Assembly: GCF_001824475.1 (NCBI RefSeq)
Contig: NZ_MHXN01000003.1
Location: forward strand, 147,526 to 211,525
Direction of reading: 5' to 3'
Source of the DNA: Phenylobacterium sp. RIFCSPHIGHO2_01_FULL_69_31
Lineage (GTDB): Bacteria; Pseudomonadota; Alphaproteobacteria; Caulobacterales; Caulobacteraceae
Length of the DNA stretch: 64,000 bases
This document shows, one piece after another, positions 7,438 to 11,821 of this stretch. The notes beneath the pieces are model-generated. The model did not search any database. It was not told the origin of the DNA and was given only the letters and a program-made list of their open reading frames with translations. Both the position numbers and the translations under genes were made by a program. The first letter of the stretch is position 1, and each line of letters opens with the position of its first letter.

Positions 7438-9663
7438 ATGGCGTTCGACAATCCGCTGGCTGGCGAGATCTGGGCCAGCAAGTACAGGTTCAGCCCGTCG
7501 TCGGGCGCCGGCGACGATACGGTGGAAGCCACCTGGGATCGCGTGGCCACGGCCCTGGCAGGCGCCGAGGCGCCCGAGCTGCAGGCCGCCACCCGGCTGC
7601 GCTTCCTCGACGCCCTGGCCGAGCACCGCTTCCTGCCGGCGGGCCGAATCCTGGCGGGGGCCGGCACGGCGCGAAACGTCACCCTGTTCAACTGCTTCGT
7701 CATGGGACGGGTGCCGGACGACCTTGGCGGGATCTTCGCCCATGTGCGCGAGGCCGCCGTCACGCTGCAGCAGGGCGGCGGCGTGGGCATGGACTTCTCC
7801 ACCATCCGCCCCGCCGGCGCCGCCGTGCTGGGCGTCGGCGCCGATGCGTCCGGCCCGCTCAGCTTCATGGATGTCTGGGACGCCATGTGCCGCACCATCC
7901 TTTCGGCCGGCCAGCGGCGCGGCGCGATGATGGGCTGCCTGCGCATCGACCACCCGGACATCGAAGCCTTCATCGACGCCAAGCGGGACCCGGCGCGGTT
8001 CAGGAACTTCAACCTCTCAGTCCTCGTGCCGGACGCCTTCATGGCCGCGCTCGCCGCCGGCGCGGACTGGCCGCTGGAGTTCGACGGCCGCGTCGCTCGC
8101 ACCGTTCCGGCCACCGACCTGTGGCGTCGGCTGATGCAGGCCACCTACGACGCCGCGGAGCCCGGCGTGATCTTCATCGACCGGGTCAACGCCCGCAACA
8201 ATCTCGCCTATTGCGAGACCATCACCGCCAGCAATCCGTGCGGCGAGCAGATGCTGCCGCCCTACGGGGCCTGCCTGCTCGGCTCGATCAATCTGGCGCG
8301 GCTGGTGTCCGCGCCGTTCCAGCCGGACGCAACCCTCGACGAGGACGAACTGGTCCGGCTGACCCACACCGCGGTTCGGATGCTCGACAACGTCATCGAC
8401 CTCTCGCGCTATCCGCTCGAGGCTCAGGAGGTCGAGGCCAAGGCCAAGCGGCGGATCGGGCTGGGCGTGACGGGCCTCGCGGACGCCCTGGTGTTTTGCG
8501 GCGCGCCCTATGGTTCGGAGCGGGCGGTGGCGCTGACCCAGCGCTGGCTGGGCGCCCTGCAACGAGAGGCCTATCGCGCCTCTGCCGACCTCGCAGCCGA
8601 GAAGGGCGCGTTCCCGCTGTATGACCCGGCCATCCTGGACCGCCCGAACCTGCTGGCCCTGGATGAGGAGACCCGCGAGCGCATCGCCAAGCACGGCCTG
8701 CGGAACGGCTGCCTGACCTCCATCGCCCCGACTGGGACGACCTCCCTGTTGGCCGGCAATGTGTCCTCAGGAATCGAGCCGGTCTTCGCGTACGCCTACA
8801 CGCGAAAGGTCCGCCAGCCGGACGGATCGACGCGCGAGGAGGCTGTGGAGGACTATGCGCTCGCGGTCTGGAAACGCCTGCGGGGAGACGAGCCACCCCC
8901 GGCCGACATCTTCGTGAGCGCCCAGACGCTCAGTCCTGCCGACCACGTCCACATGCAGGCCGCTGCCCAGGCCCACGTCGACAGCTCGATCTCCAAGACG
9001 ATCAACTGTCCGGAAGATATCGCGTTCGATGACTTCCAGGACGTCTACCGCGACGCCTACGAGCGCGGCTGCAAGGGCCTGACCACCTACCGGCCGAACG
9101 CGGTGACCGGCTCGGTCCTGTCCGTACAACCCGCCCCGCCCCCGGCCGAGCCGGCGCCGGCCGAACTCAGACTCGCGCCTCGGCCCGAGAGCCTAGCGGG
9201 CGCCACCTACAAGATCGCCTGGCCGGACAGCGCGCATGCGACCTACGTGACCATCAACGACCTGGTCGACGCGGCGGGCCAGCGCCCCTTCGAGATCTTC
9301 GTCAATTCCAAGAACATGGAGCATTACGCCTGGACGCTGGGGCTCACGCGAATGATCTCCGCCGTCTTCCGGCGCGGCGGCGACGTGAGCTTCGTGGCCG
9401 AGGAACTCAAGGCCGTCTTCGATCCGCGCGGGGGAGCTTGGCTCGGCGGGCGCTATGTGCCGTCCCTGCTCGCGGCGATCGGCGGTGTCCTCGAACGGCA
9501 TCTGGGCGGCCACGCGCCAGCGGCGACCACTTTCGCGCCGGAGGCCGCCCGGCCGGAGGCGGTCCGCCCTCCGGCAGCCTGTCCGAAGTGCGGCGGCTTC
9601 GAACTGCAACGCAAGGAAGGCTGCGACACCTGCCTGTCCTGCGGCCATTCCAAGTGCGGCTGA
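7438..9663 (+). CDS. nrdJ: adenosylcobalamin-dependent (class II) ribonucleotide reductase
   Basis: 741 aa. The active-site loop NPCGEQ places the thiyl-radical Cys at 268 and the catalytic Glu at 270; C86 and C279 are the likely redox pair. A C-terminal cysteine-rich tail (C715, C718, C729, C732, C735, C740) resembles the zinc-ribbon/thiol-relay end of NrdJ. It reduces ribonucleotides using a B12 radical, independently of O2. GGAGG lies 7 nt before the ATG. Its place between the moe and moa genes suggests it supplies dNTPs during anaerobic nitrate respiration. I see no cobalamin riboswitch upstream. Confidence 0.93.
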   Translation: MAFDNPLAGEIWASKYRFSPSSGAGDDTVEATWDRVATALAGAEAPELQAATRLRFLDALAEHRFLPAGRILAGAGTARNVTLFNCFVMGRVPDDLGGIFAHVREAAVTLQQGGGVGMDFSTIRPAGAAVLGVGADASGPLSFMDVWDAMCRTILSAGQRRGAMMGCLRIDHPDIEAFIDAKRDPARFRNFNLSVLVPDAFMAALAAGADWPLEFDGRVARTVPATDLWRRLMQATYDAAEPGVIFIDRVNARNNLAYCETITASNPCGEQMLPPYGACLLGSINLARLVSAPFQPDATLDEDELVRLTHTAVRMLDNVIDLSRYPLEAQEVEAKAKRRIGLGVTGLADALVFCGAPYGSERAVALTQRWLGALQREAYRASADLAAEKGAFPLYDPAILDRPNLLALDEETRERIAKHGLRNGCLTSIAPTGTTSLLAGNVSSGIEPVFAYAYTRKVRQPDGSTREEAVEDYALAVWKRLRGDEPPPADIFVSAQTLSPADHVHMQAAAQAHVDSSISKTINCPEDIAFDDFQDVYRDAYERGCKGLTTYRPNAVTGSVLSVQPAPPPAEPAPAELRLAPRPESLAGATYKIAWPDSAHATYVTINDLVDAAGQRPFEIFVNSKNMEHYAWTLGLTRMISAVFRRGGDVSFVAEELKAVFDPRGGAWLGGRYVPSLLAAIGGVLERHLGGHAPAATTFAPEAARPEAVRPPAACPKCGGFELQRKEGCDTCLSCGHSKCG

Positions 9664-9669
9664 GGGGGC

Positions 9670-9683
9670 TTGATACGCGTCAA
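9670..9683 (+). promoter_or_regulatory. FNR-type box upstream of moaA
   Basis: TTGATACGCGTCAA matches 9 of 10 consensus positions. CCTAGAGT at 9704-9711 is a GCTANAWC-like -10, with its TA 30 bp from the box centre. The predicted transcript starts near 9718 and includes the structured leader. Confidence 0.75.
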
Positions 9684-9742
9684 GGCGGGGCGCGGGCTGC
9701 CGTCCTAGAGTGATCGAACGCCAAGCTGTTTGGCGACATTGC

Positions 9743-9848
9743 TCCGAGCGTCTCGTCCTAAAGCGCCGTCAGGCGCCAGGGCCGACCGCCGCGCCGGCGC
9801 CCGCCGGCAAGGGTTGCGGGGGAAACCCCGCCGCCTCCCGCGCTTGGA
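9743..9848 (+). promoter_or_regulatory. structured moaA leader RNA, candidate Moco-type riboswitch
   Basis: An 8-bp closing stem (TCCGAGCG 9743-9750 with CGCTTGGA 9841-9848, one G-U) encloses three hairpins: 9763-9776 (GCGCC/GGCGC), 9793-9808 (GCCGGC/GCCGGC), and 9816-9831 (GCGGGG-GAAA-CCCCGC, a GNRA tetraloop). GCTCC at 9741-9745 overlaps the 5' strand of the closing stem. It can alternatively pair with GGAGC at 9851-9855, which is the moaA Shine-Dalgarno. That is the layout of a translational switch. Moco riboswitches are known in front of moaA genes, but membership in that family is inference. Confidence 0.5.
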
Positions 9849-9860
9849 AAGGAGCCCGCG

Positions 9861-10838
9861 TTGGGACGTCTCGTCGACGGCTTCGGCCGCCGATTCCGCT
9901 ATCTGCGGCTTTCGGTCACCGAGGTCTGCAACTTCCGCTGCACCTACTGTCTCCCCGACGGCTACAAGAAGACGGGATCGCACGCCTTCATCTCGCCGTC
10001 CGAGGCCGAGAAGGTGGTCCGCGCATTCGCCGAGCTGGGCGTCGGAAAGGTCCGGCTGACCGGCGGCGAGCCCAGCGTGAGGCGCGACCTGCCGGAGATC
10101 ATCGGCCGCGTCTCGACCACCCCTGGGATCGACAAGGTCTGCATCACAACGAACGGCTGGAACCTGGAGCGCCAGATCGACGGCTGGCGCGACGCCGGCC
10201 TGACGAACCTCAACGTCAGCATCGACTCGCTCGATCGCGAGGCCTTCCACCGCATCACCGGGCACGACCGCCTCGGCTCCGTCGTCGCGGGCCTCGACCG
10301 CGCGCTGGAGCTGGGCGTGCCCGCTGTGAAAGTGAACGGCGTGCTGCTGCGCGAGACCGCCCAGGCGGGGTTCGACCACTTCGCGGCCTTCGTGCGCGAC
10401 CGGCCCGTGGCGGTGCGGTTCATCGAACTCATGCGCACGGGCGACAACGCCGAGTTCTTCGCGACGAACCATGTGTCCGGCACGGTGCTGACAGATTGGC
10501 TCGCGGCCCGCGGATGGGCCCGTCGCGAGCGCGGACTGGACGATGGTCCGGCGGTGGAGTTCTCCCATCCCGACTACGCTGGACGGATCGGCCTGATCGC
10601 ACCCTACGCGCCCGGCTTCTGCGACAGCTGCAACCGCTTGCGCGTGACGGCTCGCGGCCAACTGCGGCTCTGCCTGTTCGGCGAACTGGGCGTAGACCTC
10701 AGGGACCTGCTGCAGGCGGACGAGCCGGAACGGCTGCGGGCCCGGATCGAAGCCGCCCTCGCCGGAAAGCCCGCCGGGCACCGGCTGCATGAGGCCAACA
10801 GCGGCGACACGCGCCAATTGGCCCAGTTCGGCGGATAG
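9861..10838 (+). CDS. moaA: MoaA, GTP 3',8-cyclase (radical SAM)
   Basis: 325 aa. The radical-SAM cluster is CNFRCTYC (C23, C27, C30). TGGEP follows, and the C-terminal second cluster is CDSCNRLR...CLF. The chain ends in Gly-Gly, which MoaA uses to complete the reaction with MoaC. It catalyses the first step of molybdopterin synthesis from GTP. The start is TTG 9861 with AAAGGAG 6 nt upstream, and the protein aligns from there. Expression appears to depend on an FNR-type promoter plus the structured leader. It is convergent with the regulator gene, with 3 nt between stops. Confidence 0.94.
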   Translation: MGRLVDGFGRRFRYLRLSVTEVCNFRCTYCLPDGYKKTGSHAFISPSEAEKVVRAFAELGVGKVRLTGGEPSVRRDLPEIIGRVSTTPGIDKVCITTNGWNLERQIDGWRDAGLTNLNVSIDSLDREAFHRITGHDRLGSVVAGLDRALELGVPAVKVNGVLLRETAQAGFDHFAAFVRDRPVAVRFIELMRTGDNAEFFATNHVSGTVLTDWLAARGWARRERGLDDGPAVEFSHPDYAGRIGLIAPYAPGFCDSCNRLRVTARGQLRLCLFGELGVDLRDLLQADEPERLRARIEAALAGKPAGHRLHEANSGDTRQLAQFGG

Positions 10839-10841
10839 GGG

Positions 10842-11609
10842 CTAAGCGACCTTGGTCGGTCGCGGCCAGCGCTCGCGCTGCGCCTTGCCGGTCAGCACCT
10901 CGGTCACGGGCTGGTGGTTGTCGATCAGGGGATCCGGCTTGGCCAAGCGTTCCAGCACCACGGGCCGCGCGATCGTGACCCGCGGCCCGTTCACCTCGAC
11001 GCCATAGTCCGCAAGGGTCGCAAAGGCCCGCGACAGGTTCTCGGGCGTCATGCCGAGCAGCGAGGCGACGACCCGCTTCTCGTGCGGCAGGGTGAACGTG
11101 GGGTCGCCGCCCTGGCGCAGCCGTTGGGTGATCAGGTAGTTCGCCAGGCGCTCGATCCCCCCGCGCAGCTTCTGGTTCTTCAGCGTGCGCACCAGCCCGC
11201 GGTAGCAGCCCGCCAGCTCCTGGGCGACGGCGGTCGCGAACGTGGCGTCCGCCTGCATGGCCCGGCGGATGGCCTCCCCCGACAGCATGAGGATGTCCGA
11301 GCGTTCGAGGGTGCGGGCGCTCATCAGTCCATCGGCTTCCAGCACCACGGCGGCCAGGATGAAGGTGGAGACCGGCTTCAGGATGGAGAGCGTGGTCTCC
11401 TTGTCGTTCCAGGTGCCTTCCAGCTCCACGATCCCGTCGAGCAGCACATAGAGAAAGTCGACCTGGTCGCCCTCGAGCAAAAGGGTCGTGCCGGCTGGGA
11501 AGCGTTGCAGGAACGCCCCGGCCGTGACCGCGTCGAAGGTCTGGGGCGAACAGTCTGAGAAGAGCGGCAACGCCCTGACCCGTTGCAGGTCTCCATCCCT
11601 CATCGGCAT
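10842..11609 (-). CDS. Crp/Fnr-family regulator, NnrR/DNR-like
   Basis: 255 aa. It has an N-terminal cyclic-nucleotide-binding-type beta barrel and a C-terminal HTH with MTPENLSRAF, whose E-x2-S-R pattern is that of FNR-type proteins reading TTGAT half sites. The FNR N-terminal cysteine cluster is missing, so it is not an O2-labile Fe-S protein. NnrR/DNR relatives sense NO, usually via haem. Start ATG 11609 has GGAGG 8 nt upstream. The frame stays open to 11798, but that extension would contain two FNR boxes, so the shorter form is preferred. It is divergent from narK and likely controls the boxes in this island. Confidence 0.85.
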   Translation of the reverse strand: MPMRDGDLQRVRALPLFSDCSPQTFDAVTAGAFLQRFPAGTTLLLEGDQVDFLYVLLDGIVELEGTWNDKETTLSILKPVSTFILAAVVLEADGLMSARTLERSDILMLSGEAIRRAMQADATFATAVAQELAGCYRGLVRTLKNQKLRGGIERLANYLITQRLRQGGDPTFTLPHEKRVVASLLGMTPENLSRAFATLADYGVEVNGPRVTIARPVVLERLAKPDPLIDNHQPVTEVLTGKAQRERWPRPTKVA

Positions 11610-11664
11610 CTCGTGCGCCTCCGCAGCCCGGGACCCTTGGTGCCTGCCCTGGCGGTACTGCGCG

Positions 11665-11678
11665 TTGATCTTCGTCAA
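11665..11678. promoter_or_regulatory. FNR-type box 1 in the regulator/narK divergent region
   Basis: TTGATCTTCGTCAA matches 9 of 10 consensus positions, 56 bp upstream of the regulator start codon. Its centre is 42 bp from the next box, which is four helical turns. It could mediate autoregulation. Confidence 0.65.
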
Positions 11679-11706
11679 TTCGCGCTGAAGATCGCGGGAG
11701 ATCGGC

Positions 11707-11720
11707 TTGACCGACATCAA
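11707..11720. promoter_or_regulatory. FNR-type box 2 in the regulator/narK divergent region
   Basis: TTGACCGACATCAA matches 9 of 10 consensus positions. It lies between the regulator and narK and could serve either direction. Confidence 0.65.
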
Positions 11721-11821
11721 GCGATCAACTGACCGATGTTTAGCTGACAATAGACGCGCGGCAATTCGCCCCCGCTTCTCCTTAGCGGGAGGCGACAATT
11801 CACGCTCTCTCCCCCGCCCGA

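Follow-up and report, generated by a model that had tools for sequence, protein, structure and literature searches.

A Moco riboswitch as predicted translational OFF switch before the nitrate-reductase-linked moaA of an alphaproteobacterial Phenylobacterium

Introduction

The leader of a moaA gene in Phenylobacterium sp. RIFCSPHIGHO2_01_FULL_69_31 raises two questions: does it contain a Moco riboswitch, and which of the base pairings open to it would control the gene? The DNA analysed here, referred to as the window, is a stretch of 64,000 nucleotides from contig NZ_MHXN01000003.1, and all coordinates are positions within it. An original prediction had described 9741-9860 as a riboswitch-like RNA in which an 8-bp stem closes around three perfect hairpins, among them one capped by a GAAA tetraloop; GCTCC at the 5' end would pair either partly in that stem or with the moaA Shine-Dalgarno sequence, giving two exclusive states. 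One paper describes the Moco element as present throughout the gammaproteobacteria and scattered in several other lineages (PMC3766115). The abstract of a 2008 report gives the hosts of Moco RNAs as gamma- and deltaproteobacteria, Clostridia, Actinobacteria, Deinococcus-Thermus and environmental DNA, and names no alphaproteobacteria.

Results

Family assignment of the moaA leader

An Rfam scan of all 64 kb returned one match at the curated cut-offs, the Moco riboswitch (RF01055) at 9730-9870 on the forward strand, a span slightly wider than the interval originally predicted. The match scores 61 bits against a cut-off of 36 (E 3.5e-12) and is full length, covering positions 1-135 of the 135 in the model. 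A search of the host genome gave no further copies of RF01055, and the window copy is the sole one found. To this family model we added a covariance model of our own, R2, for which 16 close leaders were used and the window was held out; leader L005 was also excluded as very like L004. Including the window put P2 out of register, and adding three distant leaders spoiled the alignment. The held-out window leader scores 100.9 bits with R2 (rough E 6.4e-27). The 47 other loci in that search, 16 nar regions of element-free genomes and 31 loci of housekeeping moaA, score 13.4 bits at best.

The features expected of the family are present: a score above the cut-off across the full model, covariation of P1-P5, a GNRA loop with a P2 receptor bulge, a position before a Moco gene and a ribosome site within P1. 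On the Rfam match and the covariation in orthologous leaders described below, the sequence before the window moaA is assigned as a Moco riboswitch, and the riboswitch reading of the original prediction is borne out on both counts. The window's 61 bits are the second lowest among the 20 matches in its family. We also considered folding energy as proof of structure and found it uninformative: the minimum-energy fold is no more stable than shuffles (z -0.29), 68 of 200 of which fold as well. In this 74% GC stretch folding energy is therefore not evidence of structure; the family match, the held-out model score and the covariation are.

Layout and covariation of the leader

The leader lies between nrdJ, which ends at 9663, and moaA (GTP 3',8-cyclase; 9861-10838; TIGR02666, 324 bits against a cut-off of 284), and all of its features are on the forward strand. 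The 5' strand of P1, GCUCC at 9741-9745, is an anti-Shine-Dalgarno sequence, and the 3' strand, GGAGC at 9851-9855, is the Shine-Dalgarno sequence of moaA, whose TTG start at 9861 follows six bases past GGAG. Within P1, the 5' strand of P2 (9748-9758) pairs imperfectly with its 3' strand (9780-9789), and the two halves of a tetraloop receptor are found at 9757-9762 (CCUAAA) and 9777-9781 (CAGGG). Past the receptor is a distal P2 hairpin (9762-9777) with a perfect core, GCGCC-GTCA-GGCGC. This is one of the three perfect hairpins of the original prediction, which are seen in the minimum-energy fold, the one with the GAAA loop included. P3 is a hairpin of five pairs, GCCGG/CCGGC, at 9793-9808; P4 occupies 9811-9836 with its GAAA tetraloop at 9822-9825; and P5 (CC/GG) with its loop, at 9837-9847, runs into a conserved UUGGAAAGG (9844-9852).

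P3 and P4 both show covariation, and P1 shows compensatory changes. When 35 leaders are aligned with plain MAFFT, P1, P4 and P5 together contain 72 cells in which both sides of a pair change, compared with 23.3 in shuffles, none of 500 of which reached as high; their score of 0.326 compares with at most 0.124 when the helices are slid. For all helices in the 16 close leaders the corresponding values are 70 against 28.1, and 0.309 against at most 0.126. An alignment of 91 leaders fitted to the model, and hence biased towards structure, gives 720 such cells against 221. In this larger alignment P1 column pair 12:262 is AU in 62 leaders, GC in 11, UA in three and CG in two, and pair 13:261 is CG in 77, AU in five and UA in three; at pair 14:260, 39 of the 81 ungapped leaders depart from standard pairing. 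Double changes in P1 are absent within the 16 close leaders and appear across the sets of 35 and 91. P5 is invariant among the 16 close leaders, and two of the 35 leaders show changes on both of its sides. A base-by-base count of P1 found its anchor in only 56 of 108 leaders, the remaining 52 being left out, and the case for P1 therefore rests on the 35- and 91-leader alignments instead. Covariation thus supports the P1-P5 architecture, and neither of the outcomes that would have refuted the original prediction, a lack of covariation in orthologous moaA leaders and a lack of an Rfam match, is seen.

The tetraloop and its receptor

Every one of the 91 rows in the model alignment has GAAA as its P4 loop, as do 15 of the 16 close leaders. 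CCUAAA/CANGG is the sequence of the P2 receptor in the window and in 10 of the 16 close leaders; most other leaders differ at two sites, carrying G and U instead of A and C. Among the 98 leaders with letters at both receptor sites, the pair is G-U in 62, A-C in 22 and C-C in eight. G-U and A-C together account for 84 leaders, against 49.4 for shuffles and a maximum of 65 in 5000 of them, a statistic that ignores kinship. The standard 11-nt GAAA receptor is CCUAAG/UAUGG, of which the window's CCUAAA/CAGGG is the A-C variant, and A-C and G-U wobbles are near-isosteric. The GAAA tetraloop is predicted to dock in the P2 receptor, where the exchange of A-C for G-U offers a ready-made structural test.

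A competing stem at the Shine-Dalgarno sequence

Both GCTCC at 9741-9745 and GGAGC at 9851-9855 are where the original prediction placed them, and so is the 8-bp stem, in which TCCGAGCG at 9743-9750 pairs exactly with CGCTTGGA at 9841-9848. Their roles, however, have to be exchanged. The pairing of GCTCC with the Shine-Dalgarno sequence is real, but it is no alternative to the aptamer: it is the family's own closing stem, P1, and the predicted OFF state. The 8-bp stem is ruled out as closing stem of the aptamer on covariation and is instead a competing fold.

Could the 8-bp stem nevertheless have a function, as an anti-sequestering state in exchange with P1? It overlaps both P1 and P5, so the states would be mutually exclusive, and in the folding prediction for the window its probability is near 1 and that of P1 near 0. 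Of its cells, 86.1% are paired, compared with no more than 62.6% in slid versions, and its core is predicted with a probability above 0.5 in six of 18 close leaders, the window included, and in one of 25 other alphaproteobacterial leaders (L023), or seven of 43 in all. In the other 12 close leaders, however, the core probability is at most 0.20, and the CCGA arm of the stem is missing from many gammaproteobacterial leaders. Nor does the stem covary beyond shuffles, which match it in percentage paired in 33 of 500 cases, in double-change pairs in 427 of 500 and in score in 105 of 500. The competing fold is also not obviously a gene-ON state, since the Shine-Dalgarno sequence is paired elsewhere in the predicted fold of the window (unpaired probability 0.01). 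We consider such an exchange unlikely. As the stem lacks covariation and is predicted in few alphaproteobacterial leaders, the existence of two exclusive states can be no more than a lineage-specific detail.

Distribution of the element

Matches to RF01055 were found in 20 of 249 genomes of a family sample, all above the cut-off, in 14 of 150 of an order sample (13 above), in 10 of 385 of a class sample (eight above) and in 27 of 299 of a phylum sample (26 above); the samples overlap, and the search filters can lose weak matches. The family, order and class searches together give 35 distinct matches above the cut-off, all of which precede moaA. Three matches below the cut-off were dropped (L030, 25.7 bits; L037, 32.5 bits; L038, 27.5 bits), and moaA lies behind none of them. 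The element is also found at 75 of the best 80 named loci nearest in MoaA (15 of the first 20, then 20 of 20 three times), two of which are identical to two of the 35 matches; the five element-free loci have no Moco match even at a permissive threshold.

A motif of the form TTGA-N6-TCAA lies upstream of the window element, at 9670-9683 (TTGATACGCGTCAA); we take it to be a putative operator of the FNR/Dnr type, with transcription predicted to start near 9718. The same box is upstream of 34 of the 35 matches and in 42 of 43 alphaproteobacterial leaders, against 0.125 expected from mononucleotide shuffles. Outside the alphaproteobacterial set, where the 65 leaders are nearly all gammaproteobacterial, the strict motif is found in only four.

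Our search of the open literature found no paper linking the Moco riboswitch to alphaproteobacteria, Caulobacter, Brevundimonas or Phenylobacterium, although papers that spell the class name in another way would be missed by it. For this known kind of riboswitch the Alphaproteobacteria are a host group with little documentation, one that may be new. These searches place a well-known riboswitch class in a coherent group of nitrate-reductase genomes within the Alphaproteobacteria, and not in a stray match.

The nitrate-respiration setting and a second moaA

The genes near the window moaA are moaB, a moeA-like gene, a hemerythrin-domain gene, nrdJ, an FtrB-type CRP/FNR regulator, narG, narH and narI, together with two narK-like genes that fall short of the curated cut-off. 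In the family sample, narG scores above its cut-off in every one of the 20 carriers and in 36 of the 249 genomes overall (Fisher p 4.6e-20, a value that ignores relatedness), and in all 20 the riboswitch lies 3.5-7.3 kb from narG. The CRP/FNR-family regulator, at 10842-11798, matches NCBIfam FtrB above the cut-off and, lying beside the nar genes, is a candidate binder of the 9670-9683 box. Directly upstream of the moaA promoter region, at 7438-9663, nrdJ encodes a B12-dependent ribonucleotide reductase, which fits anaerobic growth.

A second moaA of the host, of the housekeeping kind, lies on a different contig (G000:C7:202893-203873, L149); it is 35% identical to the nar-linked one and lacks the element. 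Judged by the listed search scores, 13 of the 20 family carriers seem to have both kinds of MoaA and seven the switched kind only. Genomes with one switched and one unswitched MoaA, together with switch-free sisters, provide a natural experiment on the worth of cofactor feedback.

Origin and loss of the switched moaA

The switch-linked MoaA proteins of alpha- and gammaproteobacteria form one group in an 83-row tree, apart from seven housekeeping MoaA proteins of the Caulobacteraceae. Nested within this group, the alphaproteobacterial rows cluster together (SH-aLRT 96), with gammaproteobacteria such as Microbulbifer and Saccharospirillum as neighbours. The tree is a quick one of chosen alpha, gamma and housekeeping rows, with SH-aLRT as its only support measure and with L165 (a short match) and duplicates omitted; row L118, from the alphaproteobacterium Erythrobacter, mistakenly carries a gamma label, and its long branch joins that of L031. 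The placement fits the transfer of a cassette of moaA plus riboswitch, with one entry into the alphaproteobacteria followed by spread and several losses. Gene and switch probably entered the Alphaproteobacteria together from a gammaproteobacterium-like source, the direction being read from this quick tree of chosen rows. Such a pattern points to joint movement of a biosynthetic gene with its RNA switch.

Sixteen genomes of the family sample have narG and no riboswitch. Eleven of them keep an orthologous moaA near narG, 63-81% identical, which implies that the switch is dispensable; one has a housekeeping-type moaA near narG, and four have no moaA in the stretch examined, which in one case was ended by the contig end. 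The leaders of the switch-free, nar-linked moaA genes differ. Four loci from the genus of the window (L166-L169) share another conserved leader, some 190 nt long and at around 1501-1690 of each locus, with a mean column identity of 89% and a strong hairpin, GGCGCCGG-GARA-CCGGCGCC. It lies directly before moaA, replacing the Moco riboswitch, in G211 (L166), G128 (L167) and G241 (L169); L168 is from G770. This RNA is predicted to fold strongly, none of its 55 predicted pairs changes on both sides in the four sequences, and the riboswitch model matches only its hairpin, with at most 12.7 bits. Yet another common leader precedes moaA in two genomes that share the genus code g14 (L155 and L165, from G014 and G114), with an FNR-type box and, by eye, a hairpin loop of GUGA or GCGA, and without a Moco riboswitch.

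A bolder reading joins these observations: the alphaproteobacterial nitrate-respiration module would contain a gamma-type MoaA of its own, controlled by a Moco riboswitch, beside an unswitched housekeeping MoaA, and in some Phenylobacterium the switch would have been swapped for the other conserved, structured leader, making that leader a second, independent cofactor-sensing RNA. We regard this as speculative and quite improbable.

Discussion

Taken together, the data make it very likely that the Moco riboswitch of the window is a translational OFF switch on a moaA tied to nitrate respiration. By this model, an FNR/Dnr-type activator would turn on transcription from the 9670-9683 box when oxygen is low, and the leader would fold into P1-P5 with the GAAA tetraloop docked in the P2 receptor. 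Binding of the molybdenum cofactor, as expected for the family, would then close P1 by pairing GCUCC at 9741-9745 with GGAGC at 9851-9855, and the closed P1 would hide the Shine-Dalgarno sequence and stop MoaA synthesis, by analogy with E. coli. When the cofactor is scarce, P1 would open and moaA could be translated. The FNR-type activation, cofactor binding and translational repression in this scheme are modelled on E. coli. Several points tell against the OFF-switch reading: the near-zero probability of P1 in folding, the ordinary stability of the fold, the often non-standard P1 pair 14:260, the lack of double changes in P1 among the 16 close leaders, the imperfect P2, the low score of 61 bits, the dispensability of the switch and the second moaA of the host.

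The same aptamer might instead act chiefly on transcription, with the cofactor causing early termination, for example Rho-dependent, and masking of the ribosome site being secondary. For E. coli, a 2025 RNA-seq method paper reports results that point to modulation of transcription termination by the Moco riboswitch (PMC12121620). In the window, however, a simple scan gave no intrinsic terminator in or just after the leader, its sole match in 9000-11500 being at 11385, which is the shuffle rate; moreover, the Shine-Dalgarno sequence sits inside P1, and compensation keeps P1. A chiefly transcriptional mode of action seems rather improbable to us. That the element is a non-functional relic brought along by a transferred moaA would suit the same-family orthologues without it and the low score and imperfect P2 of the window, but we give this little credence in view of the compensatory changes among close relatives and of a conserved core, GAAA loop, P1/Shine-Dalgarno overlap and operator motif that are all intact.

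The translational OFF switch favoured here has its closest known counterpart in E. coli moa. There, the Moco RNA lies downstream of an FNR-dependent promoter and has the ribosome site inside its P1, and expression of a reporter increases more than threefold under conditions expected to make Moco scarce (PMC2408646). The same 2008 study divides Moco RNAs by the presence of P3 (PMC2408646). Having a P3, the window element falls in the P3-carrying group. The group lacking P3, which is linked to the tungsten cofactor, has the same core, from which the window differs by its five-pair P3. Like the E. coli moaA element, the predicted window element has P1-P5 with P3, a GAAA loop in P4 and a receptor in P2, a position before moaA, a ribosome site in P1 and an FNR-type box upstream. 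Unlike it, the window element has an alphaproteobacterial host, stands before a moaA beside a nar cluster and belongs to a genome with a second moaA. At the level of bases, P1 of the window reads GGAG where many gammaproteobacterial leaders read GGUGU, and its receptor has A-C where most of them have G-U.
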